A stretch of 47,894 nucleotides of DNA from Patescibacteria group bacterium (GTDB lineage Bacteria > Patescibacteriota > Dojkabacteria > JAKAPS01): NCBI GenBank assembly GCA_025450075.1, contig JANWIC010000004.1, forward strand, positions 1-47,894. Reading direction: 5' to 3'. The position numbers and the translations under genes are program-made. The notes under the pieces are model-generated. The model was not told where the DNA came from. It did no database searches and saw only the letters and a list, made by a program, of their open reading frames with translations. Shown piece by piece: positions 2,785-17,006 of this stretch. Position 1 is the first letter of the stretch, and each line of letters starts with the position of its first letter.

Positions 2785-5340
2785 TTATGCAAGAAGTTTT
2801 TTTAAATCATTTTGTGTAAATTCACCATGAAATCCTACTGGTGAAAAACCAAATGAATTATCCGGATTCACTGACCAATTCCAAATGAGTTCACCAGTAT
2901 ATCCCATCGTTTTGGTCTTTGTAATAATGGATTTAAGATAGGTCAGTGGAGAAGATCCTTCAATCTGAGATTGTTTTGATATCCCAAGCTCTTCTATGAA
3001 TATTGGCTTTTGGTCATTTTTTACCCTTACTACCTCATTCTTTAATTTTTGTCCAATTTCTGCTGAAGAATATACAGTTATATCATCAGGCGCGTTTAAG
3101 TAGGTATGGATTGAACAAATATCAATAGATGGAATAGCACATAAATCTATTTGATTCATTGAAATATCCTGTGTTCCGATTGTAACTAAATGGTTTTGAT
3201 CAAGCTGCTTTAGGTATGATGTCATTTGTTCAGTCCAGGTATATACGGATGTATCGGGTTGAGGTTCATTCATCAAATCCCATGCTAGAATTGTGGAATC
3301 TTTTGCATATGGAATATGTGTATAAGTATTGATACGATTTACTACTTTGTTTATATAGTTTTTCATAAGATTTTGGGTATCGGGATTTGTATAGAATAAG
3401 TCAGGATTAGATAAAGGATCTTTACCTACCCAGGATACATATTGATTTTTTCCTCCATAGTCAGTCCAATTATTCACAAGAACTGGAATTAGCCTGATGT
3501 GATATTTTTTTGCAGTTGTAATAATTTCATCTGCTTGAAGAAATCTATTTTCATTCATGATTCCCGGTAGAGGTTGGAACCCGTCGGTTGTCCCTTCACC
3601 AAAAAGCCAGAACCTAACCACATTCACATTTGATTTGGAAAGCTGTGAAAAAGTATATTCTATTTGGCTATTTGTTTGGTAAGCAAGATCATATGCATTA
3701 ACACCATGAATGGTAAAAGCGGCATCATTTACCTTGAGTGTTGATCGCTCTCTTATTATAAAGAGATCATTAGATCCTTTTTTCTCATACACATTTGCGT
3801 GTTTACCAGAAAAGGCGAGTTTATAATATTGTAAAAAGCCTTTTTTCTCTTTATCCATGAGTGCAGTATAGACACTATCCCCAATATCTCCATTTGGCAT
3901 AACAATCCAAGTTGCGTATGGAGCTGGATCATATATTGCTTTTTTCCATAACGCTGATACTCCTTCATGGATAAGCTGGTTGAGTCGGATACCACTTTGG
4001 AATGCAACCGGATTGAAATATGAAGTAGACATAAGGATAGTATCAGAAGGTCCTACTTTTTGCTTGAGGAAATTTGCAATATCAGAGTTTGTAAAACTGC
4101 TCGAACCAGTTTGCCCGTCAATCACTGTTGTTACTCCTGTATGGATGAAATATATCCCTTGAGCAAAAATGATAACCCATGCTATAGTTACCGTTTCGAA
4201 TAGAAAACGGGAAGTTTGTGGGACAAGCATTGCTGCAAAAAATGAAACAGCAGGTAATGCAAGGATTGCGTATCGGACATTAAACCATTGTGTAACTAGC
4301 GGAGTTGTATACAAATGCAATTGCGGAGTATCGAGAGATGTAAACCCCAGCACCAAAGCAATGATATTGAAGATGATTGGTGATAATAGCATGAGTGCAA
4401 TGAGTATTCTTTGAGTATAATAGAATTCAATATTTTTTTTGAAGAAAAATAGTATCATGCCGATACAGCTAAACAGTAAAATAGGAATTCCAATTGTATC
4501 AATTACTGCTGATCCATAGGCAAGAAGCGACATCCCAATATTGCCTTTTGTTGCAAGCCCGCTATTAACAAGGATTAAGGTTTGTTGAGAATGTGCAGAA
4601 TATGGACCTAAGATGAAATACAATGGATTTTTAAATATTACCATGTTCCATAATATCCATATTCCCATTCCAAAAAGAACCGGCATTATGAAAAAGAGTA
4701 AAAGTCCAAATATTTGAAGCAATGTATGTCTTCTTAAGTAGATTTCATAAAAGATAATGAGAAGCATTTCTATAAATACAACAAACCATCCATCATATCT
4801 GATTAATACCTGACAAAAACCACATAATCCTAGGAATAAAAGAAAGTTAGGTTTATCTTGCTGTAACCAAGCTATGAGGCAATAGGTTGAGAGAATAAAA
4901 AAAACTAAAAAAAGAGGTTCGGTAAGCGGTGTGCTTTGAAGGTATAGCATATTTACATTTAAAGCAAATACTCCTGCTCCGATGAAAGCAATGAATTTTT
5001 TTCTAATTGACATTTTAATAATTGCATACATTCCCCAAACTGATATGACAAAACTGATCATGGAAAATATACTTCCTGCAAAACCCGAATGCCATGCCCA
5101 GTTATTCCAGATAAGAAGGAGATCTAACATATGATTGAGTGGAAGCCAAACTCCACCAAGTTGAGAAAATCCTGGTTGTAAATTATCAATAATTAATCTT
5201 GAAATATTCAAATGGGACATTGCATCGTTATATATTACACTTAATCCGGAAAAATACGTAATAAGCCACGCGATAACAGAGATACTAACTACCCCAAGTA
5301 TCGGCAGATATCGTTTTGTCCAGAGTAATATTCTCTTCAT
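2785..5340 (-). CDS. membrane glycosyltransferase (GT39/ArnT-like) fused to extracytoplasmic GH5 (mannanase-like) domain
   Basis: 851 aa; N-terminal ~450 aa multi-TM PMT-like region (YNDAMSHLNISR, WLPLNHM); C-terminal GH5: GVNAYDLAYQTN, NVVRFWLFGEG, LAWDLMNEPQPD (acid/base Glu), IHTYLN, IFIEELGIS (nucleophile Glu). Confidence 0.85.
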   Translation of the reverse strand: MKRILLWTKRYLPILGVVSISVIAWLITYFSGLSVIYNDAMSHLNISRLIIDNLQPGFSQLGGVWLPLNHMLDLLLIWNNWAWHSGFAGSIFSMISFVISVWGMYAIIKMSIRKKFIAFIGAGVFALNVNMLYLQSTPLTEPLFLVFFILSTYCLIAWLQQDKPNFLLFLGLCGFCQVLIRYDGWFVVFIEMLLIIFYEIYLRRHTLLQIFGLLLFFIMPVLFGMGIWILWNMVIFKNPLYFILGPYSAHSQQTLILVNSGLATKGNIGMSLLAYGSAVIDTIGIPILLFSCIGMILFFFKKNIEFYYTQRILIALMLLSPIIFNIIALVLGFTSLDTPQLHLYTTPLVTQWFNVRYAILALPAVSFFAAMLVPQTSRFLFETVTIAWVIIFAQGIYFIHTGVTTVIDGQTGSSSFTNSDIANFLKQKVGPSDTILMSTSYFNPVAFQSGIRLNQLIHEGVSALWKKAIYDPAPYATWIVMPNGDIGDSVYTALMDKEKKGFLQYYKLAFSGKHANVYEKKGSNDLFIIRERSTLKVNDAAFTIHGVNAYDLAYQTNSQIEYTFSQLSKSNVNVVRFWLFGEGTTDGFQPLPGIMNENRFLQADEIITTAKKYHIRLIPVLVNNWTDYGGKNQYVSWVGKDPLSNPDLFYTNPDTQNLMKNYINKVVNRINTYTHIPYAKDSTILAWDLMNEPQPDTSVYTWTEQMTSYLKQLDQNHLVTIGTQDISMNQIDLCAIPSIDICSIHTYLNAPDDITVYSSAEIGQKLKNEVVRVKNDQKPIFIEELGISKQSQIEGSSPLTYLKSIITKTKTMGYTGELIWNWSVNPDNSFGFSPVGFHGEFTQNDLKKLLA

Positions 5341-7544
5341 TACTGAGAGTGTGTTAGCGGATATTGCTGCAAAGCTACATGCTGTGAAGTTTGCAGATAA
5401 AGTCCATGTTTCGTTTTATTCCAATGATGCAGGTTAAATATGAATTCTTTACAAGCCTGTAGACAGGCGATACTCATGAAAAACCAATAGAACGGAACAA
5501 GGAGAGTAAAGGGAATGAGATCCCATTGCCCCCTTTTTACCAATCCAAGAGTGTATGAATACAGATACAAGAAATTACCGAAAACAAATGTTATAACAGC
5601 AATATATAATATTGGTCCGGGAAAAAGCGTATGAATAAAATTGTGAAGAGACCCTCTATCAATAATATATATTGATGTCATGATCCACATTGCAAGATTC
5701 GCAAGTGTTGCAAACACTTTTCCGCCTATCATGAGTTGGAACAGAAAAAACCCTTTACCAAAAAAATCTTTCGGGTTTCGCATATGCACGAAATATGTCT
5801 GCATATAACCTTTCATCCATCTTGCCCTTTGATTTCTCCAATTCTTTAATTTGCAATTTGCTTCCTCAAGCGTATATGAGTCAATAATAGCAGTATGATA
5901 TCCCCTCTTTGCAATTCTCATTCCTAGATCCGCATCTTCTGTGACGTTAAACGGATCCCAACCGCTTAATTTTTTTAAATCGTTTAATTTGAAATGATTT
6001 GATGTCCCTCCTAATGGAATTGGAGCCTGGAGATATTGTAATCCGGTTAATATTAATTCAAACCATACTGCATATTCTGCTGTAAACAATCTTGTTAATA
6101 GATTTTGCTTTGCATTATAGTAATTCAGTTTTGCCTGAATGCATACAACTGACTTATCCATTGTTTGAAATGCAATAATTGCCTTTTTTAACTGGTCAGG
6201 ATCAGGAATATCTTCTGCATCATAAATGACGGCATATTCCCCTCTTGCTTTTTCCAAAGCATAATTTAGAGCTTTGGGTTTTGTTTTTGGAAATGAATGC
6301 GGAACAATATGAATGGAAAAGTTTTCTGGCAAATGCATCATACTAATTTGCTCTATTGTTTCAGGATCATTTTCTTCCAGTAGAAGCATGATATCCAATT
6401 TTTCTTGCGGATAATCTAGATTTTGCATAGCTTCAATAAATTGACCAACTATCTCTGATTCTTTATATAATGGACAAAATATTGTATAGATCGGGTAATC
6501 AAATGTTTTTTTTGTTCGTGTAGATGAGATATGAAGAATTGGTGAAACTAAAAAGCTCAAAGATACAAGTAGTGTATTACACACCAAATCGACAAAATAC
6601 AAAACAGTTATTGTTGCAATAAAAATAATAAGCGTTACATGCCAATTCAAAAGAATAAAAAGACTTATTGTACAAAAGATGAGAAGAATAGTTGTCTTTT
6701 GCCATCTTGTGAAATGAGTAAGTGCTAATTCATAAAAAGGTAATGATGAATAATGAGTAAATTCCTTTCCTTTGTAGTGGAACCCGTTATGAGATGAATT
6801 TTGGATTGGTTGTCTTTTTTTCAATTTCAGCTTTATCGCCTCTCTTGCAATTTGCAATGAATCGCTAAACAAATGAATTTTTGAAATGCCTTTTGTGCGG
6901 GGAGAAAAAGTAATGGGAATAGTTGAGAGCAGAAAACCTGCATCAAGCGCTTTTACCAAAAATTCCAAATCAAACGACCATGGACGTGGATGGATAGTGA
7001 TCTGTTCTAATATTTCTTTTCGAAAAAGCTTCAAACCGGATTGAGCATCGCATGGGATGTGATGAAGCACTTTTACAAAGATAAAATTAAATGTCTTACT
7101 AAAAATTCTTCGGTACCAAACTAATTGAGATTCATTCCTGTTTGCAACGACAATATCAACTTTCCTTTCTTGAAGTATTTCATACATTTCATTAATTGCT
7201 TCAGGGGGGTATTGTAAATCAGCGTCAATAAAGCCGATAATCTCCCCTGACGCATGAGTAAATCCTTCTAATAAGGAAAAAGCTTTCCCTTTTTCTCCTT
7301 TTTTTGAATATATCTTTACATGAAAGCGATTCTTTTTCTTTCTAACTAAACTCAGAGTCCTATCAGTTGAGTGATCATCAACTATAATAACCTCATAAGG
7401 GATATGGGATCGTTTACAGCTTTGATCAATTCGCTCAAGTAAACGGATAATATTTCCCTCTTCATTTAATGTAGGTATGACAATTGAAATCATAAATAAG
7501 CCTTTCTTAGGGGGTAGCATAAAATACATCAATATTGTAATCAA
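5340..7544 (-). CDS. bifunctional GT2-GT2 fusion: DPM1-like glycosyltransferase plus processive cellulose/mannan synthase-like glycosyltransferase
   Basis: 734 aa; N-terminal SIVIPTLNEEGNI, IIVDDHSTDRT, GFIDADLQYPPE (DPM1-like); C-terminal YDAEDIPDPDQL, VTEDADLGMRI, NQRARWMKGYMQTY plus TM helices. A more likely start is the internal MISIVIPTLNEEGN Met. Confidence 0.85.
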   Translation of the reverse strand: MITILMYFMLPPKKGLFMISIVIPTLNEEGNIIRLLERIDQSCKRSHIPYEVIIVDDHSTDRTLSLVRKKKNRFHVKIYSKKGEKGKAFSLLEGFTHASGEIIGFIDADLQYPPEAINEMYEILQERKVDIVVANRNESQLVWYRRIFSKTFNFIFVKVLHHIPCDAQSGLKLFRKEILEQITIHPRPWSFDLEFLVKALDAGFLLSTIPITFSPRTKGISKIHLFSDSLQIAREAIKLKLKKRQPIQNSSHNGFHYKGKEFTHYSSLPFYELALTHFTRWQKTTILLIFCTISLFILLNWHVTLIIFIATITVLYFVDLVCNTLLVSLSFLVSPILHISSTRTKKTFDYPIYTIFCPLYKESEIVGQFIEAMQNLDYPQEKLDIMLLLEENDPETIEQISMMHLPENFSIHIVPHSFPKTKPKALNYALEKARGEYAVIYDAEDIPDPDQLKKAIIAFQTMDKSVVCIQAKLNYYNAKQNLLTRLFTAEYAVWFELILTGLQYLQAPIPLGGTSNHFKLNDLKKLSGWDPFNVTEDADLGMRIAKRGYHTAIIDSYTLEEANCKLKNWRNQRARWMKGYMQTYFVHMRNPKDFFGKGFFLFQLMIGGKVFATLANLAMWIMTSIYIIDRGSLHNFIHTLFPGPILYIAVITFVFGNFLYLYSYTLGLVKRGQWDLIPFTLLVPFYWFFMSIACLQACKEFIFNLHHWNKTKHGLYLQTSQHVALQQYPLTHSQ

Positions 7545-7620
7545 GGTTATAGATGCTGACTGTAATTAAAATAACAATACTATGAGCTAATATATTGAAT
7601 TAAAGCAGGAAATAATATAG

Positions 7621-7639
7621 GATATAGATGATCTATATC
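7621..7639. repeat. perfect palindrome GATATAGAT-G-ATCTATATC in a divergent intergenic region
   Basis: 9-bp arms, 1-nt centre, between genes at 7544(-) and 7680(+). Confidence 0.8.
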
Positions 7640-7679
7640 ACATCCTTCCCAATATTTCATTTTGTATTAGACAATTCTT

Positions 7680-8162
7680 ATGATTCAATTCATATCCGGC
7701 ATATCACCATTAATTCAACGCGCCGAAGAAGTTTTGCAATGGTGTATTAATAGTGGGATAGATGAAAGCGAATGCAGTGTTATGTATGTCGCAAAATACC
7801 ATGATGTTTCTGATAAAACATATCCATTGATTTATAGTATTCTTGGAATTGCATACAACAGTTTACCTATTCCATCTGACATAGGTGTATTATATATCGG
7901 AGGACCTCTAGCTGCATCTCTTGCTGTAACTGAAACATCGCGATCTACAGGTCCGCTTGTTGGAGGAATAGTGAATGCATGCATGGATATTGGATTTCCT
8001 GAAAATGATGCTAAGAAGATTTTTCATGCGATGCAACATGGCACTGTACTTATTGGTGCAAATATAGAAGATGAAAAGACGGAAGAAATCATGAAACTAT
8101 TCTCAGATCATGAAATCTTCCCTGTCTTTGCAATTGCATTAGAAGATATCTTCATTCCTTAA
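7680..8162 (+). CDS. hypothetical protein
   Basis: 160 aa intact ORF; weak resemblance of FPENDAKKIFHAMQHGTVLIGANIEDEKTEEI to YflT/stress-protein-like repeats. Confidence 0.5.
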   Translation: MIQFISGISPLIQRAEEVLQWCINSGIDESECSVMYVAKYHDVSDKTYPLIYSILGIAYNSLPIPSDIGVLYIGGPLAASLAVTETSRSTGPLVGGIVNACMDIGFPENDAKKIFHAMQHGTVLIGANIEDEKTEEIMKLFSDHEIFPVFAIALEDIFIP

Positions 8163-9871
8163 TGCGAAATATAGATAGCAACTGATGTTGAAGAAATTAC
8201 ATTCCCATTTAGATCTTTTGCAGTAAATGTCAGCATATATGGGCCGTTTCCTCTCCAATTCCATCCTGAAAGATCAACAAGTGATTCTTTATGGTCTGTT
8301 GCATTCTGCATTAGATTGAATTGACCATTATCTACTTGCCAGTACATATTGTATGAAGATAATGATGCGCCATTCAAGACAGCTTTAAATGGTTGTGTCC
8401 CTGATACTGTTACTTTATTTGTCGGCCACCATACGGAAACAGTTGAACCTGTCGGAGTAGGTGTTGGTGACTGACCCACCGTTATATTTATTATGCTATT
8501 GTTCCAGTAGTAGAGTGTTGACCATGTGCTGTTAAATACTCCTAATTTTACCTGGTATACCCCTGCTGATTGAGGAGTCCAGTTTATCGTATAATTTTGT
8601 GCCTGATTTGTACTAAATGATTGGTTTTGGAAATACTGTTGAAACACTTTTGTGCTCCCGGCGTATATTTCCATATCGGTGATAATGCCGCTTGTATTTC
8701 CTCCCGTATCTTTTATTCCAGTTGAAATAGTTGCCTGCTGATTAACCGAAGGAGATGATGGTGACACAGATGTCGGCTGCATGGAGAATGCAGGTTGTGT
8801 TCCTCCTCCACCACTTCCTCCGCCTTGTGAAAACCAGGTTATCAAAACTTGCTGAGCTGATTTGTTTTGAACAGTATACCCGTTATCATTTGGACCACCA
8901 GCATTTGGATCTACTGACCATTGCCATATTTGAACACCAATCATCCAGGGATAATTGCTCCAATAATCAAAAAGTGCAGTATAGTCATTTGCCTGTTCGG
9001 TTTGGTCTGCAGGACCTCCCATACTGTAATTCCATGGTTGTGTATTAGCGCCTTTTACGCTTCTGTATCCTATTTCTGTAAAAAGCACGGGTTTTTGGTA
9101 TGTATTACTGAGCGATTGAATATTGGAAATGTATCCTCCCCAAGCTCCTTCAAGTTGTGATACAGAAGCGTCAGCCTGGCTTGTCAGATTAAAATATGCA
9201 GATATACCAATATAGTCCAATATATTCCAAAATGCGATATGGTCTTTCTCGTCAACAAAACCTGAAGGACCCCAATTTGAACTATAGGTAAGTTTTCCCG
9301 AAAAAATACTTCGAATTTTTGAAATGAGTGTATCCCAATATCCAGTATTTGCAGATGATGAAGTGTATGTTGATAGTGTAATCAATTCACTTCCAATACA
9401 AATCTCTTCAACATTATGTGCTTGTGCTATAGTTGCAAGATGGGACATGATCTGTCCATAATTGGAAAACCATCCTGCCTTATCTGATGGGTTAATGTAT
9501 GCTCGCCAATCTCCAGTTGTCGGATCAATATGAGGAGCAAGCATAACATGAAGACCTATACTATGTGCATAATCTATTCCTGCAATTAGTGAGGCGTCTG
9601 TAGGAGTGTTGTACCCGCCTTGAATGGAACTTGTGTATAAATCAGACTGATAGTATGGAATGATAAGTGTGACATAGTTTGCTCCAGTTGCTTGTAAGTT
9701 TTTAAGAGAAGTTTGAAAAGAACTTGAATCATAATCAGTTGTATTTGTCGGCACTATTGTCTCTCCTTTTTGCCAATTAGCCAAGCTTCCTGCTGCGTGA
9801 GTTGATCTTGGTAAAAAAGCAAAAAAGATGGAAAAAAGAAGAAGGATTAGTAATACTGATAGTCGTTTCAT
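8159..9871 (-). CDS. secreted GH113-like glycoside hydrolase with two C-terminal Ig-like domains
   Basis: 570 aa; signal peptide MKRLSVLLILLLFSIFFAFLPRSTHA; EEICIGSELITL, PVLFTEIGYRSVKGA, GVQIWQWSVDPNAGGPNDNGYTVQNKSA; Gly-rich linker then beta-sandwich-like domains. Confidence 0.8.
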   Translation of the reverse strand: MKRLSVLLILLLFSIFFAFLPRSTHAAGSLANWQKGETIVPTNTTDYDSSSFQTSLKNLQATGANYVTLIIPYYQSDLYTSSIQGGYNTPTDASLIAGIDYAHSIGLHVMLAPHIDPTTGDWRAYINPSDKAGWFSNYGQIMSHLATIAQAHNVEEICIGSELITLSTYTSSSANTGYWDTLISKIRSIFSGKLTYSSNWGPSGFVDEKDHIAFWNILDYIGISAYFNLTSQADASVSQLEGAWGGYISNIQSLSNTYQKPVLFTEIGYRSVKGANTQPWNYSMGGPADQTEQANDYTALFDYWSNYPWMIGVQIWQWSVDPNAGGPNDNGYTVQNKSAQQVLITWFSQGGGSGGGGTQPAFSMQPTSVSPSSPSVNQQATISTGIKDTGGNTSGIITDMEIYAGSTKVFQQYFQNQSFSTNQAQNYTINWTPQSAGVYQVKLGVFNSTWSTLYYWNNSIINITVGQSPTPTPTGSTVSVWWPTNKVTVSGTQPFKAVLNGASLSSYNMYWQVDNGQFNLMQNATDHKESLVDLSGWNWRGNGPYMLTFTAKDLNGNVISSTSVAIYISH

Positions 9872-10054
9872 ATAGGTATAAAAGATATATTGGAATTATC
9901 GTACCGTTAATGCTTGATGAATTCAGTTAGAACACTTACCAAAGACATGCATACCTTCTAACAATATAGGTTATGTAGATATGGGAAATGTATGAAGTAA
10001 TCCTTTTATAACAATATTAAAATTTAATCCAGTCATGTATATTACATTTCCTGC

Positions 10055-10068
10055 GTAAGGATCCTTAC
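10055..10068. repeat. perfect palindrome GTAAGGATCCTTAC in the GH113/GH8 divergent intergenic region
   Basis: 14-bp perfect palindrome between 9871(-) and 10122(+). Confidence 0.75.
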
Positions 10069-10121
10069 TGCCTATAGCTTTCATGATACATATACTAATC
10101 CCAGTATTTCATCGGATTTGA

Positions 10122-11324
10122 ATGGCACGATTCACCCGAAAACAAAAGACCGCAGCAGGAATAATTCTACTTGGGGTTATAGCGACTTTTTTTATTGTTC
10201 ACATTGGAAAATCAACTCCTACTCCTCAGGTGAATATCCAATACACTGATGTATTATCCAATGCCTGGCAATATTACAAAAAAACATATATCCAAGCAGA
10301 TGGAAGAGTTATTGATGTAACATCTCCTAATTTGCAAAGCACATCAGAAGGACAATCTTATGCAATGCTGCAAGCAGTTCAAGAACAGGACCATGACTAT
10401 TTTGATCGAGTATATCAATGGACACTCTCAAACTTGGCTGTTCGGCATGATGGTTTGTTTGCATGGTTATGGGGAAGAAAACCTGATGGTTCATGGGGGG
10501 TAATCCAGGAAAATGGAGGAATGAACAGCGCAACTGATGGAGATGAACAAACAGCTGTAGCATTAATTAATGCCTACAATACCTGGAAAGAGCAAAAATA
10601 TCTTACAGAAGCAATGTCTTTGATGAAAAGCATTTATGCATCCGATACTGCTTCTTACAATAACCAGAAATATGTTGTTGCAGGAAATTGGGCAAATGAC
10701 AGTATTGCAAATCCCGAACCTATTCTTTTTATAAACCCCTCATATTTGCAGTTAACAGATTACAGGCTTTTTAGCAGATATGATAATGCAGATAATTGGA
10801 ATGGTATCATCAATACTTCTTTTGATGTATTAAATAACTGTACTTTTGATAGTTCGAATATTGCGATGCTTCCCCCAAATTGGTGTTTAATCAACACCGA
10901 TAGATTCAATATTAATTATACAAATCCATCCTTTCCACCTGTATATAGCTATGACGCTTTTCGAACAATGTATAACGTAGCACTTGATTACAAAATATAC
11001 AAAGATCCAAGAGATTTATCATATTTACAAAAAACGAGTAATTCACTTTATAAATTTTATCAACAAAATTCCAGTGGTGAAGCATACAACATATTAACTG
11101 ATCAGACAATAAGTGGTGGGTCATATATTATCAGTTCTGGGACTGCAGCTAATTTCTATTTCACCCACCCAAATGAAGCTGATTCAGTTTTTATGGACAA
11201 TATTTACCGACAATATGAATCTGAAAGTGGAAAATTTGGAAATGGATATTATGATTCAAACTGGAATTGGTTTATGACTTATCTATATTCAAATCAAGTA
11301 GAAAACAATATTCCAGTCGTATAG
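10122..11324 (+). CDS. membrane-anchored GH8 family hydrolase (BcsZ-like)
   Basis: 400 aa; N-terminal TM; TSEGQSYAMLQAV, ATDGDEQTAVALINAY, YSYDAFRTMYNVALDY are GH8 hallmarks. Confidence 0.88.
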   Translation: MARFTRKQKTAAGIILLGVIATFFIVHIGKSTPTPQVNIQYTDVLSNAWQYYKKTYIQADGRVIDVTSPNLQSTSEGQSYAMLQAVQEQDHDYFDRVYQWTLSNLAVRHDGLFAWLWGRKPDGSWGVIQENGGMNSATDGDEQTAVALINAYNTWKEQKYLTEAMSLMKSIYASDTASYNNQKYVVAGNWANDSIANPEPILFINPSYLQLTDYRLFSRYDNADNWNGIINTSFDVLNNCTFDSSNIAMLPPNWCLINTDRFNINYTNPSFPPVYSYDAFRTMYNVALDYKIYKDPRDLSYLQKTSNSLYKFYQQNSSGEAYNILTDQTISGGSYIISSGTAANFYFTHPNEADSVFMDNIYRQYESESGKFGNGYYDSNWNWFMTYLYSNQVENNIPVV

Positions 11325-11327
11325 CAT

Positions 11328-12908
11328 ATGAAGAATAAATTTAAATTCAAACAATCACATATTAAAAAACCTTTGATTATCCTTGCCTGGATTGCTTCCA
11401 TTGTATATATTTACTGGTGGCTACAATTCTCCAATGTTGGAAATATCTATTTATATATTATACTACTTATCAGTGAAATATATTTTCTTTTGATGACTTG
11501 GGGATACTGGTTTACTGTATGGGATACTTCTTTTACTAAAAAAAGATCTATTCATACATTCCCGAGTATTGATATTTATATTCCGGTATGTGGAGAACCA
11601 TTGGCAATCATTACTAATACCCTTACAGCAATTCTAAGAATGAAATATAAAGAAGGTTTCGTAGCCGATTATCCGGAGTTGGTACATATCTTTATCCTGA
11701 ATGATGGGTTTGTAGCAAAAAAAGAAAATTGGAAAGATGTTGATGATTTAGCTTTGCGATATCCCGTCACAGTAATTACTAGAGAAATTGGTGGAGGTGC
11801 AAAAGCCGGGAATATTAATAATGCTATGAAACAAACGTGGGGAGAGTATATTGTTATTTTTGATGCAGATATGAATCCTCTTCCTGATTTTTTAACAGAA
11901 ACAATAGGATTTTTTAGAAAAAATTCAGTTGCATTTGTCCAAACCCCTCAATATTACAGCAACAAAAAAAGAAATTTTGTAACAGACGGAGCATGGGCAC
12001 AGCAGGAGTTATTCTTCGGTCCTATTTGCAGGGGAAAAAATAGGGTAAATGCAGCATTTTGCTGCGGGACTAATGTCATAATCCGAAGGAAAGCGCTTGA
12101 GGCAATAAACGGGTTTGATACGGATAACATAGCAGAAGACTTTTCTACTTCAGTACGAATACATGCGCAGGGATGGAAAACAATCTATTACCCACATGTT
12201 CTTGCACATGGACTAGCTCCAATGAATATTGAGGAATATTACTCTCAGCAGCTTCGTTGGGCGAAAGGATCAATCGATGTTTTCTTTAAAAACAACCCGA
12301 TTTTTAAACGGCATTTAACACTTGCTCAGCGAATCCAATACCTTTTGTCTTTGGGATATTATTTCATGGGATTTTTCATGATACTCGATGCTTTTATTCC
12401 CGTTATTTTTCTCGTAACAGGAATTGTCCCGGTAAAAGGAACTTCAACCACATATATTCTGCTTTTCATGCCATATATTCTTTTTATTATCTATATCCTT
12501 TCTGCTTCAACCGGAGGAAGCTTGAATTACAAAGCATTGCAATTTTCTATCGGTTCTTTCTATATCCAAATAATTGCAATATTTTCATCGATATTTCACA
12601 GAAAAATTGGATTTAAAGTGACAAGCAAAGAAGTAGGAAAAGAAAAGAACTTCTATTTCAAACTTGTTTGGCCGCATATACTATATATAATAATAGGTTT
12701 CATATCCATCGGTATTGGGGTGTTTCGTGAGGGATTCAGTCCAGCAATCATCACGAATATGTCATGGATTATATTTAATATGACAATGATATCTGCACAT
12801 GTGTATGCAGCAATGCCGGGATTACAGGCATGGCTAAAAAAGATTTTTCCTACAGAATCATTTGGGTATGATGAAACTCCTGAAGTATATATCAATATAA
12901 TTCATTAA
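11328..12908 (+). CDS. cellulose synthase catalytic subunit-like GT2 (BcsA-like, no PilZ domain)
   Basis: 526 aa; IDIYIPVCGEP, IVIFDADMNPLPDF, CCGTNVIIRRKAL, IAEDFSTSVRIHAQGW, QQLRWAKGSIDVF plus TM helices; no PilZ domain. Confidence 0.9.
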   Translation: MKNKFKFKQSHIKKPLIILAWIASIVYIYWWLQFSNVGNIYLYIILLISEIYFLLMTWGYWFTVWDTSFTKKRSIHTFPSIDIYIPVCGEPLAIITNTLTAILRMKYKEGFVADYPELVHIFILNDGFVAKKENWKDVDDLALRYPVTVITREIGGGAKAGNINNAMKQTWGEYIVIFDADMNPLPDFLTETIGFFRKNSVAFVQTPQYYSNKKRNFVTDGAWAQQELFFGPICRGKNRVNAAFCCGTNVIIRRKALEAINGFDTDNIAEDFSTSVRIHAQGWKTIYYPHVLAHGLAPMNIEEYYSQQLRWAKGSIDVFFKNNPIFKRHLTLAQRIQYLLSLGYYFMGFFMILDAFIPVIFLVTGIVPVKGTSTTYILLFMPYILFIIYILSASTGGSLNYKALQFSIGSFYIQIIAIFSSIFHRKIGFKVTSKEVGKEKNFYFKLVWPHILYIIIGFISIGIGVFREGFSPAIITNMSWIIFNMTMISAHVYAAMPGLQAWLKKIFPTESFGYDETPEVYINIIH

Positions 12909-14384
12909 ATGAAGGACTTTCGTGTTTCAGTTGTTACAACTCTGGTTATCCTTGTCTGTATAGCAGTTGGTCTATTGCTTCGGTTACATTTCATTTCCTC
13001 TTTAAGCATATCGCTAGATGAGGCACAAAGCATTTGGCAGGCACAACATACCTTATGGGGATCTGATAGTATATTTGTAGTAATGGCAAAAGACATACAT
13101 CCTCCGCTATTTGTCTTAATGCTCCATTTTTGGATTCAACAATTCGGACAAGGTGCTTTTATAGATAGAATACTTCCCCTCATATTCGGAATGCTTTCCA
13201 TTCCTCCCTTTTACTTTCTTGTCAAAGAGGTATATACAAGAAAAGAAGGTATCTTTGCTGTTGCGATTGCTGGATGTGGCCCATTATGGATATGGTATTC
13301 AATAGATATAAAAAACTATTCATTATTAATATTTGGAACGATATTATCTCTTTTGTCATTTTTTAAAATTGTGCATAACAATCATCCACGCACATGGATG
13401 ATTTTCTTTTTTCTATCACAAATATTGGGTATGTATTCCCATTATTTTTTCTTTCTAATAATTTTGCTGGAATTTATTGGAGCATTTATTTACAAAAAAA
13501 AGAGCATTATCATCCTCTCACTTTTATCAGCGATATTCTTCATTCCATGGGGATATGAATTTTTGCTCTTTCACTCCAGTTCTACACAACCAAGTCTTGG
13601 ACAGGTAAACCTGTTTAATATTCTCCTGACAATTTTTGAATTGGTGCTAGGGTATCACAGCACCGATTTTTATAAAGCATCGATTGCCCTGTGGCCGCTT
13701 GTTATCCTATTTTTCTTTGTCTATATTAAAGCGTTCCGGAAAGTGAATAAAGATAGTATGCTATTATTGATAGCGATCATTTTACCAATTGCTGGAACCT
13801 TTATTGTATCGCAAATTAGTGTAACGATATTTCTCACGCGTTATCTTCTGTTTGTTTCCATTTTCTTATACATGGTGATTAGCAGAAGCATATTCTCTGC
13901 AAAATATGTTCCGTATCGTTTAGTCGGAACAGTAGGCTTTTTAATACTACTTCTTTTTATGACATATACACAATTTAGCGATCCGTTGAACATTTCCGTT
14001 GAGGATTACAAAGATTCAGTTGCCTATGTTGAACAATATGCTACTCCTCACTCGCTCATTATAGTTTCTGCTCCATTTACTATTTATCCATTTGAATATT
14101 ATTACTCAGGAAATGCTCCATATGTAACATTGCCTTTATGGGACAGGAAGCATCCGATTAACTTTGCACCTACTCCCGGTCAGATGGCAGCATTAGTTTC
14201 ATCTTCTGAAAAAACTTACTCAAAAATTTTTTTGATAGAAAGCTATGATCAGGGACATAACAATGAGACAGTGAGCTGGTTTAATAATAAGTTTAAAATT
14301 ATCAGGCAGGAAAATTTCGGATACAATGTATCAGTGCATGAGTATCAAATTTCATATGATACTCATGCACTTGCAAATCGTTAA
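12909..14384 (+). CDS. membrane glycosyltransferase, PMT/GT39 family
   Basis: 491 aa; SISLDEAQSIWQAQHT, DIHPPLFVLMLHFW, multi-TM. Confidence 0.82.
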   Translation: MKDFRVSVVTTLVILVCIAVGLLLRLHFISSLSISLDEAQSIWQAQHTLWGSDSIFVVMAKDIHPPLFVLMLHFWIQQFGQGAFIDRILPLIFGMLSIPPFYFLVKEVYTRKEGIFAVAIAGCGPLWIWYSIDIKNYSLLIFGTILSLLSFFKIVHNNHPRTWMIFFFLSQILGMYSHYFFFLIILLEFIGAFIYKKKSIIILSLLSAIFFIPWGYEFLLFHSSSTQPSLGQVNLFNILLTIFELVLGYHSTDFYKASIALWPLVILFFFVYIKAFRKVNKDSMLLLIAIILPIAGTFIVSQISVTIFLTRYLLFVSIFLYMVISRSIFSAKYVPYRLVGTVGFLILLLFMTYTQFSDPLNISVEDYKDSVAYVEQYATPHSLIIVSAPFTIYPFEYYYSGNAPYVTLPLWDRKHPINFAPTPGQMAALVSSSEKTYSKIFLIESYDQGHNNETVSWFNNKFKIIRQENFGYNVSVHEYQISYDTHALANR

Positions 14385-15952
14385 TTTATTGTGATTGTTC
14401 CCACATGTGTTGCCCATGAATATTCATGTGACCAATCGGGTGAAAATATTCCTACCTCTATGGAATAGACTCCTTTTGCAAAACCCGAAGGAACATTCCA
14501 TTTGACAGGAATTGTTATATCGGTTCCTTTTTGGTTTTGATTATCGGTAATAATTTGTGCAACTTTTTGTCCTGTATTATTTTTCATTTCGGTATCAACA
14601 AGATATGTTGCATCAGTTACTTCTAATGTATCAAGATGCAGATTAATGGTATATGCGAGTGAAATGTTCGCACTAACCCCTTTACTTGCTGTTTGAGCTA
14701 GAGTAGTTGGAGTAACAGGTGAACTTGTTGGAAGTAAAGGTTGGTTGGAGCTATAGAGATTAGTAATATTTCCATTTCCCATCATCAATCCGAATGCAGC
14801 CCAGTTATTTCCATAATAATTGGTTGAATTGCTTGCAAAATATGCATAGCCATTATTATATATATAGTCTTTTTCAATTTTTTGTTCGATGCCTGATACT
14901 ATGGCAGGGTCTGATTTCATAAATACTGCGAGATCCCCTCCGTAAATTGCTGAGGATTCGTAACTATTTTTTACCGTTCCATCATGGTTGTACTCTGCGT
15001 AAATCTTTCCTAGGCTATTCCATTGGTCAAGCATGAAGGTATGAATTGCGCCTCCAAGAATTGCCGATGCTCGTGGTTCGTTAAACCAGAGATAATCTTC
15101 TGCAACTCGGAAAGTTGTTCTGAATGCATCATAAGTATAGGCATTCGTTCTATCGTTCCCATTTGGCTGGTTAAGAGTAAGGCTTGTTAGGTCAAGTATT
15201 CCCCAGTTTGGGAAAAGACCAGCATTTGTTGCAAGTATTCCTGTTGTTGATTTATTTAACAAATCATATGAAGTATCTACAACACTATTCCATTTTGTGT
15301 TTCCACTGCTTTGTGCAAATAATTTGTAATATGCAGGAGCTAAGTATGAAAGGTTGATGTCTACATTATTCCCTTGATATCGGGTATATGTCCCGCCAGT
15401 TATATATAGCCTACCATCAGACCCTTTAGCTGTCTCTTTTGACAGGATATCTGCAATAATTGCATTCGCTTGTTGTGTATATGAATTTTGTCCCCATTGT
15501 TTTCCTGCAAAAAGCAGTGCTGTTGCAATATCTTCATCTGCATCTGTTGCTCCTGTCCAATCAAGCACAGCATTGTTATAATGCCAGGCAAAAAGATTAT
15601 CTCGATTACTTTGATCTGAATTATTCATTCGAGACAAATTTTGTTTTGTCCAGTTCCAAATACTATCAAATGTTGTCTGATCGTTCATATATACAGAACG
15701 TAGCATTCCGTATCCCTGGCCTTCAGAAACAACATCATATCCCTGGTCAGGTCGTACGACTTTGCCATTATCTATATAATACTTTTTATACCCATTCCAT
15801 GATGAAGTAAGCATGGCGGAAATATCTTGTGAGGGAGTTTGTGTGATTTGTGAATGCACAGATTGAGAATGAAATGTTTGATACAAGAAACTGGAAACGA
15901 CGGACAAAACGACAACAAAAATAATACTGAAAGACTTTTTATTGTTTTTCAT
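14381..15952 (-). CDS. secreted/anchored GH8 family hydrolase with C-terminal beta-sandwich domain
   Basis: ORF track gives 15994; the signal-anchor-like N-terminus MKNNKKSFSIIFVVVLSVVSSFLY supports a start at 15952. VSEGQGYGMLRSVYM, ATDADEDIATALLFAG, YTYDAFRTTFRVAEDYLW. Confidence 0.85.
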   Translation of the reverse strand: MKNNKKSFSIIFVVVLSVVSSFLYQTFHSQSVHSQITQTPSQDISAMLTSSWNGYKKYYIDNGKVVRPDQGYDVVSEGQGYGMLRSVYMNDQTTFDSIWNWTKQNLSRMNNSDQSNRDNLFAWHYNNAVLDWTGATDADEDIATALLFAGKQWGQNSYTQQANAIIADILSKETAKGSDGRLYITGGTYTRYQGNNVDINLSYLAPAYYKLFAQSSGNTKWNSVVDTSYDLLNKSTTGILATNAGLFPNWGILDLTSLTLNQPNGNDRTNAYTYDAFRTTFRVAEDYLWFNEPRASAILGGAIHTFMLDQWNSLGKIYAEYNHDGTVKNSYESSAIYGGDLAVFMKSDPAIVSGIEQKIEKDYIYNNGYAYFASNSTNYYGNNWAAFGLMMGNGNITNLYSSNQPLLPTSSPVTPTTLAQTASKGVSANISLAYTINLHLDTLEVTDATYLVDTEMKNNTGQKVAQIITDNQNQKGTDITIPVKWNVPSGFAKGVYSIEVGIFSPDWSHEYSWATHVGTITIN

Positions 15953-16034
15953 GGTGTTATATTTATTACACATAAAGTGTAAATAATGTAACATTCATGA
16001 AGGCTAAGTGCAAGCACAACTACAACTTATCCCA

Positions 16035-17006
16035 TTATTCTAAGAAATCAATATCAAGAAAATTGCGATTGATTGGTTGGTGGGGATGGATATATCTTTG
16101 TAAATAGGTAATGTAGGGTTTTGCTTTTTGAAAATTATGATGTATTAGCCATGAGCTTTTTACAATTGCAATTATAAGAGAAAACACATCAATTTTTTCA
16201 TGAAATAACTTTGGATCAGATAAATCAATATCAATTTCTTCTCTCCACCCTTTGATTAGATATTCTGATAATCCTGGATGCAGCATATGAAAATTTGCTA
16301 TATCCCAAACTGGATCCATACTCATCTTATTTCCGAAATCAATCATTCCGCTATACCCATATTTTGCCGCAAAAATATGAAGCAAATCATAATCACCATG
16401 CACTAACCTTCCTTGTTTGAGAGAATGGACAGAAGGATGTGAAGCAATATATGTTTTTATCCATTCTGCTTCTGAGTTCGTTATGATATTTGCATTACAT
16501 AATAAAGGCAAGTGTTCATGGAGAGCATTATGGAGTACAGTTTGCAGATCATCATCATATCCGCAAACAATTCTGTATTTTCTACTCAATTCATTTGAAC
16601 ACCATCCAAAACCTCTTGTATGGATATGGTGCATCCGAGCCAAATCCTTACCCGCTCTAGTGATGATAAATGCTTGCTCACTTTTAGCTAATGAAAGCGT
16701 TGAAAATGGTTGGCCATCAATTGCAGTAATAACAAAAAAGGGATATTGAAAAGTGATCTCAGAATCATCATATATGACAGGACGGGGTACTCGTACATTT
16801 TTTTCAGCTAAATGTTCAATCACCCATTTTTCCGTATAGAAAGGAATGTGGTCAAGTGAAATTTTGATATAGTAATATCTGACATCTGTTTTAAATCTCC
16901 ATACCTCATTTGGTGGCTGTGATTTTACCTGTTCAATTTCATAAACTTTTCGCTTCAGATAGGTTTGTAATAGGTTGTCGATATCTGTTTTTGTAATTTT
17001 TTCCAT
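16035..17006 (-). CDS. APH/choline kinase-like phosphotransferase
   Basis: 323 aa; VHGDYDLLHIFA (Brenner-like motif), GMIDFGNKMSMDPVWDIANF. Confidence 0.8.
   Translation of the reverse strand: MEKITKTDIDNLLQTYLKRKVYEIEQVKSQPPNEVWRFKTDVRYYYIKISLDHIPFYTEKWVIEHLAEKNVRVPRPVIYDDSEITFQYPFFVITAIDGQPFSTLSLAKSEQAFIITRAGKDLARMHHIHTRGFGWCSNELSRKYRIVCGYDDDLQTVLHNALHEHLPLLCNANIITNSEAEWIKTYIASHPSVHSLKQGRLVHGDYDLLHIFAAKYGYSGMIDFGNKMSMDPVWDIANFHMLHPGLSEYLIKGWREEIDIDLSDPKLFHEKIDVFSLIIAIVKSSWLIHHNFQKAKPYITYLQRYIHPHQPINRNFLDIDFLE

Follow-up and report, generated by a model that had tools for sequence, protein, structure and literature searches.

Seven glycosyltransferase (GT) and glycoside hydrolase (GH) genes of a small-genome Patescibacterium fall into two separately conserved modules and satellite hydrolases. 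The first, a three-gene unit that we call module A, probably constitutes a complete stand-alone machinery for a cellulose-like beta-1,4-glycan, and the second, module B, a further unit directed to mannan. The window, by which we mean the whole stretch of DNA analysed, is a complete contig of 47,894 bases (C4 of genome G000) from a 1.11-Mb, 25-contig, 93.5%-complete assembly. Profile searches placed all seven proteins in the families that an earlier note had read from the sequence, with E-values down to 7.7e-86 for the match of the synthase P6 to the NCBIfam BcsA profile TIGR03030, and none was reassigned to an unrelated GH family. That note had described one compact locus. The seven genes are indeed there, but not as a single run: four lie on the minus and three on the plus strand, and an unrelated 160-aa gene intervenes. 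Module B (2785-7544, minus strand) consists of two overlapping genes encoding P1 and P2; module A (10122-14384, plus strand) encodes P5, P6 and P7, with intergenic gaps of 3 and 0 bases. The proposal that all seven genes form one conserved system was ruled out, as modules A and B are conserved separately, with satellite hydrolases, and the closest relatives hold at most module B.

The synthase of module A, P6 (11328-12908, plus strand, 526 aa), is a BcsA-type processive GT2. It matched BcsA entries in the PDB at 1.9e-52, and its AF2 model (pLDDT 86) returned bacterial BcsA as the top PDB fold matches, with a TM score of 0.82 over the query, followed by plant CesA. The catalytic D, DxD, ED and QQxRW motifs were all in place in the alignment, and the gating loop FxVTxK, conserved across the clade described below, read FKVTSKE at residues 429-435. 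P6 also carries substitutions relative to canonical BcsA (AED for TED, LND for LDD and CGTN for FCGS), given which its linkage or donor could differ from that of cellulose. The protein ends at residue 526 with no PilZ domain, and neither PilZ nor GGDEF matched anywhere in the 93.5%-complete assembly, in which the controls did match. BcsB (PF03170) was absent from the whole assembly and from ten other genomes holding relatives, and the locus has no BcsC gene. The absence of BcsB and PilZ pointed out in the earlier note thus extends to the genome, and to GGDEF as well. In the Gram-positive BcsA-like synthase RiGT2, deletion of PilZ abolishes activity (PMC10374906), so P6, which has no PilZ, must differ in its control; by analogy, the missing domain could imply a different partner or product.

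We looked for P6 homologues in named genome contigs and in 380 genomes sampled from the phylum. The named contigs yielded nine loci with close homologues (39-45% identity across most of the protein length), and the phylum sample a further 13, one of them from the same genome as a named locus, giving 21 distinct loci besides the window. Wherever the contig reached far enough, a GH8 gene lay directly upstream of the synthase (20 of 20 other loci) and a P7-type GT39 gene directly downstream (19 of 19), and in the checkable loci the genes always kept the same order and strand. This cassette is spread over WWE3, Blackburn-, Taylor-, Kaiser-, Parcu- and Saccharibacteria; more distant BcsA-like proteins among the loci were without the GH8/synthase/GT39 arrangement. 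The 21 cassette synthases placed in a tree, that of the window included, formed one clade (bootstrap 100, SH-aLRT 97) apart from canonical BcsA and from a group of GH81/HlyD-linked synthases, and window P6 was its first branch, deep in the clade. The clade signature comprises LNDG for LDDG, CGTN for FCGS, mostly AED for TED, and QQxRW (or QHxRW) for QRxRW, while FxVTxK or FxITxK is kept. No strong P6 homologue was found in the one same-family genome or in the eight same-order genomes. The comparison of neighbourhoods in related genomes, which the earlier note had offered as a check, therefore failed among close relatives and succeeded in distant classes; since the cassette is kept in the latter though missing from the former, a test confined to close relatives would have misled. 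The claim of a c-di-GMP-independent, BcsB-less beta-glycan locus in a small-genome Patescibacterium is supported, and it now has a conserved core.

The neighbours of the cassette in other genomes bear on its product. GH6 cellulases act on beta-1,4-glucan, and a GH6 protein adjoins six cassettes. The N-terminal Ig-like domain of this protein is homologous to the last Ig-like domain of the window hydrolase P4. DPM1-like GT2s directly flank the cassette at two loci (L029 and L030), where they would supply the donor that P7 would need. On a 3.9-kb contig binned as Actinomycetota (L034:3-2912), BcsA-like and GT39-like domains are joined in one 969-aa protein; its placement in the tree is weak (62/0). 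In the cassette of Microsaccharimonas sossegonensis (L071:9881-11509), one of the nine named loci, the synthase is split over three reading frames, which reflects either a broken gene or sequencing errors.

The genes flanking the synthase in the window encode a hydrolase and a GT-C enzyme. P5 (10122-11324, plus strand, 400 aa) is a membrane-anchored, BcsZ-like GH8 with a transmembrane segment at residues 11-29; it matched PF01270 at 1.1e-42 and the BcsZ profile NF008305, also at 1.1e-42 and there below the equivalog cut-off, and by eye we located its catalytic residues in SEGQSYAML, ATDGDE and YDAFR. P7 (12909-14384, plus strand, 491 aa) matched PF13231 (also recorded as PMT_2) at 3.2e-8. Its AF2 model (pLDDT 74) matched OST, ArnT, PMT and ALG9 in Foldseek, placing it in the GT-C fold, and it carries the DE of the first outer loop and the DxHPPL motif of GT39 (PMT-type GT-C) enzymes, residues that were invariant in seven homologues. 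Fold and motifs together lead us to expect that P7 uses a lipid-linked sugar at the outer face. Because P7 always travels with P6, the emerging chain would be its likeliest acceptor, although the acceptor could instead be a protein or a lipid. Convergent with module A and overlapping it by 4 bases lies the gene of a second secreted GH8, P8 (14381-15994, minus strand, 537 aa), which has a C-terminal Ig-like domain. P8 matched PF01270 at 5.2e-44 and the endoglucanase 1cem at 3.8e-31, with equivalents of E95, D152 and D278 aligned; its PDB matches also include xylanases and chitosanases. We considered whether the C-terminal domain of P8 is a copy of the first Ig-like domain of P4 and rejected this, as the score (76, with shuffled sequences reaching 66) was too weak.

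Module A falls within the broad class of synthase-dependent beta-glycan machineries, but two features that define Bcs, BcsB and PilZ, are missing from it, and it corresponds to neither Ccs nor Csl. With the Gram-negative BcsA-BcsB-BcsZ-BcsC system it shares a BcsA-like GT2, the channel fold, the FxVTxK loop and a GH8 in the operon with the synthase. It differs in having neither BcsB nor PilZ in a genome without GGDEF, in placing the GH8 upstream of the synthase and a GT-C enzyme after it, and in the altered TED, FCGS and LDDG motifs and separate clade of its synthase. The clostridial CcsZABHI system likewise combines a synthase and a hydrolase without BcsB or BcsC homologues, but its CcsA has a PilZ domain, and its CcsZ, CcsH and CcsI are GH5_25, MBOAT and DHHW proteins, respectively (PMC7710045); here the hydrolase is a GH8, and neither CcsB, CcsH (MBOAT) nor CcsI (DHHW) was among the window neighbours scanned. 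Streptomyces CslA-GlxA-CslZ also joins a GT2 with FxVTxK to a non-homologous partner and a hydrolase; there the partner, GlxA, is a copper oxidase, of which none was found among the window neighbours, and CslA activity depends on c-di-GMP (PMC11022532), whereas the partner here would be a GT-C enzyme. In Bcs, Ccs and Streptomyces Csl, the synthase is invariably joined by a second, non-homologous protein (PMC11022532); P7 would take that place in module A. The Romboutsia mixed-linkage glucan synthase RiGT2 resembles P6 as a BcsB-less, BcsA-like enzyme of a non-Gram-negative cell, but has and needs a PilZ domain (PMC10374906).

BcsA-like GT2s, including short forms without PilZ, also occur in Patescibacteria beside HlyD and GH81, a beta-1,3-glucanase family (L015:3922-11019, L016:6334-10581 and L037:3379-7624; HlyD only at L035:9869-12194), and these GH81/HlyD-linked synthases share one clade with Actinomycetota synthases. 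They are possibly a curdlan-like system. As these BcsA-like proteins next to GH81 and HlyD include some of the same class, we considered the same reading for module A and ruled it out on the tree and the gating loop: P6 lies in the other clade, the GH81/HlyD-linked synthases are without FxVTxK, and the P6 locus has no HlyD or GH81 neighbours.

Module B pairs a GT39-hydrolase fusion with a fusion of two GT2s. P1 (2785-5340, minus strand, 851 aa) has a GT39-like (GT-C) part at about residues 1-530, with some ten hydrophobic segments in residues 1-400, and a mannanase-type GH5 part at 531-851. The GT39 part had no Pfam match of its own and was recognised as GT39-like through its homologues. The GH5 part matched PF00150 (2.7e-12 at 544-824) and retains the catalytic NEP Glu; its nearest relatives are plant and microbial endo-beta-mannanases, nearly all of its 16 PDB matches being named mannanases or mannosidases, and the best of them is the tomato endo-beta-mannanase 1rh9 (2.9e-42). 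P2 (5340-7544, minus strand, 734 aa) joins a DPM1-like GT2 (PF00535, 2.7e-43) to a membrane GT2 (PF13641, 2.1e-32) with TED and QRARW motifs; its annotated start is a TTG, but translation more likely begins at the ATG of codon 17. GT2-GT2 fusions of this type also occur in four other genomes (G242, G138, G337 and G346), and homologues of the membrane half were found in 25 of 380 genomes, in many of which a GT39-like gene stands before or after.

The hydrolase of module B is exchanged between genomes. A GT39-GH5 fusion of P1 type is present in a genome of the same family (G001, locus L214) and in G242 (L203), the latter holding both module B genes in the fused forms of the window. Altogether GT39 is fused to GH5 in three genomes and to GH8 in six (G004, G160, G161, G186, G197 and G346); G346 adds a GH113 and so reproduces the arrangement of the window with GH8 instead of GH5. 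This exchange beside a constant GT2/GT-C pair marks the hydrolase as interchangeable. Other homologues of the P2 membrane half are proteins of 1,340-1,600 aa, fused to a GT4 domain in at least one and perhaps several genomes, and a single 1531-aa chain at L199:7846-12441 holds GT2, GT2 and GT4 domains. The genome itself has a second P2-type gene (L198:6560-11938, on contig C1), 55% identical in the membrane half, which is followed by two GT39-like genes and no hydrolase and adjoins a DUF2079/LPG_synthase-like protein. The GT4-fused homologues and the copy without a hydrolase imply that the module B GT2 need not make a polymer everywhere, and the membrane half of P2 may have a role other than polymer synthase.

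Between the modules lies P4 (8159-9871, minus strand, 570 aa), a secreted or anchored GH113 with an N-terminal transmembrane or signal segment (residues 3-21) and two C-terminal Ig-like domains. It matched the GH113 profile PF22612 at 5.6e-53 and PDB mannanases at 1e-29, with both catalytic Glu residues aligned. With the GH5 of P1, it bears out the presence of mannanase-type families, and the two point to a beta-mannan or glucomannan as the product of module B. Several GH113 members are without mannan activity (PMC9032380), so the GH113 match need not make P4 a mannanase. The earlier suggestion that the polymer may contain mannose thus fits module B and GH113, while module A looks glucan-directed, judging from its GH8, the GH6 neighbours of its relatives and the FxVTxK loop. 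A divergent intergenic region of 250 bp (9872-10121) separates the GH113 gene from module A; a promoter scan of this region returned fewer sites than shuffled sequence did. P3 (7680-8162, plus strand, 160 aa), between P2 and P4, overlaps the end of the GH113 gene by 4 bases, had zero Pfam or NCBIfam matches and was not seen adjoining the modules in other loci; it is probably outside the system.

In the mechanism that we propose for module A, P6 would polymerise a hexose from a cytoplasmic nucleotide sugar and extrude the chain outwards through its own transmembrane channel, requiring neither BcsB nor c-di-GMP. At the outer face, P7 would decorate the emerging chain from a polyprenyl-phosphate sugar donor or, alternatively, act as an obligatory synthase partner in the position of BcsB, CcsB or GlxA. 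P5 would trim or release the chain, and P8 would be a second, secreted trimmer. In module B, the DPM1-like half of P2 would make the polyprenyl-phosphate hexose and its membrane GT2 half a second glycan, with P1 contributing a GT-C domain and a GH5 mannanase on the outside; the two modules may serve one envelope layer. The source of the donor sugar is less apparent. PMM/PGM, a WcaJ-like transferase, MurC, MurE, MraY and Ddl are present in the assembly, which indicates that nucleotide sugars are used. Yet PF00483 (NTP_transferase) had zero matches in an assembly in which all 14 controls matched, queries with E. coli GalU, RfbA, ManC, GlmU and GlmS had no useful match in the 1.07 Mb covered, and a pyrophosphorylase motif search with positive controls came back empty, leaving the donor without a visible source. 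Nucleotide sugars may be host-derived, an enzyme that escaped recognition may make them, or the gene may lie in the missing 6.5%.

The product of module A could be another beta-glycan, such as a mixed-linkage beta-1,3/1,4-glucan, a glucomannan or a mannan, with the GH8 and GH113 as matching hydrolases. We regard this as rather unlikely, though it draws on several observations: the changed signature of P6, the PilZ-bearing Gram-positive BcsA-like enzyme that makes mixed-linkage glucan (PMC10374906), and the several beta-1,4-glycans covered by GH8, as in the xylanase and chitosanase matches of P8. It draws also on co-occurrence. Of the 380 genomes, 17 contained GH113 and 14 a P6 homologue; both occurred together in eight, which belong to six families (8 of 14 against 9 of the 366 others; Fisher p=6e-9, ancestry not corrected for), a tie that counts for the favoured reading of the locus too. 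Against this, GH113 adjoins module A only at L025/L142 and in the window, whereas GH6 cellulases adjoin six cassettes, and the gating loop and nearest fold of P6 are those of cellulose synthases.

DPM1-like domains supply Dol-P-Man-like donors in protein O-mannosylation pathways. The GT39-like proteins might accordingly O-mannosylate surface proteins, served by P2, leaving only P5 and P6 to make polymer. The GT39/PMT motifs and GT-C fold, the DPM1-like domain of P2 and the genome's second P2 copy with two GT39s and no GH are all compatible with this, but P7 always adjoins P6, at L034 a GT39-like enzyme and a P6-like synthase form a single protein, and P1-type GT39s are fused to beta-glycanases of two families; we consider it improbable. 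A feeding locus, in which the GH8, GH5 and GH113 enzymes degrade plant or host beta-glycans beside unrelated GTs, would suit CPR bacteria as usually described, namely as cellulose and starch degraders (PMC12153355), and the Ig-like domains of the secreted hydrolases. The conserved order of the GH8-GT operon and the fusion of hydrolases to GT-C domains in nine genomes already make this very unlikely, and profile searches of the locus proteins found no sugar transporter or exo-glycosidase. There is hardly any chance that the locus reflects a contig chimera or a recent mobile acquisition: same-order relatives do lack a strong P6 homologue, but the GC content of the locus equals that of the genome (both 35.3%), module B recurs in G001, a genome of the same family, and the branch of P6 lies deep within its clade.

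We therefore favour module A as a cellulose-like unit beside a mannan-directed module B. More tentatively, and as a view that we hold to be doubtful, the cassette might represent a phylum-wide class of cellulose-synthase-like systems in which a GT-C enzyme in the BcsB position decorates the chain to give a branched or substituted beta-1,4-glycan, while the swappable GH5 or GH8 of the sister unit reads out backbones that include a bacterial beta-mannan. We found no description of the cassette in the open-access papers searched (subscription papers and preprints lay outside the search). Patescibacteria are discussed mainly as carbohydrate degraders and as attached symbionts with unknown surface chemistry, and in several lineages, Saccharibacteria among them, the conserved three-gene unit is a compact and testable candidate for a surface or attachment polymer. 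It would add a BcsB-free, c-di-GMP-free, GT-C-partnered solution beside Bcs, Ccs and Csl, and in the GT-C/glycanase fusions, where hydrolases are swapped, the chemistry of the backbone could be predicted from the specificity of the hydrolase.

Adjoining the locus, at 16035-17006 on the minus strand of the window, is a gene for an APH-family phosphotransferase (PF01636, 1.1e-13), which matches APH(3') weakly and is most likely a general kinase.
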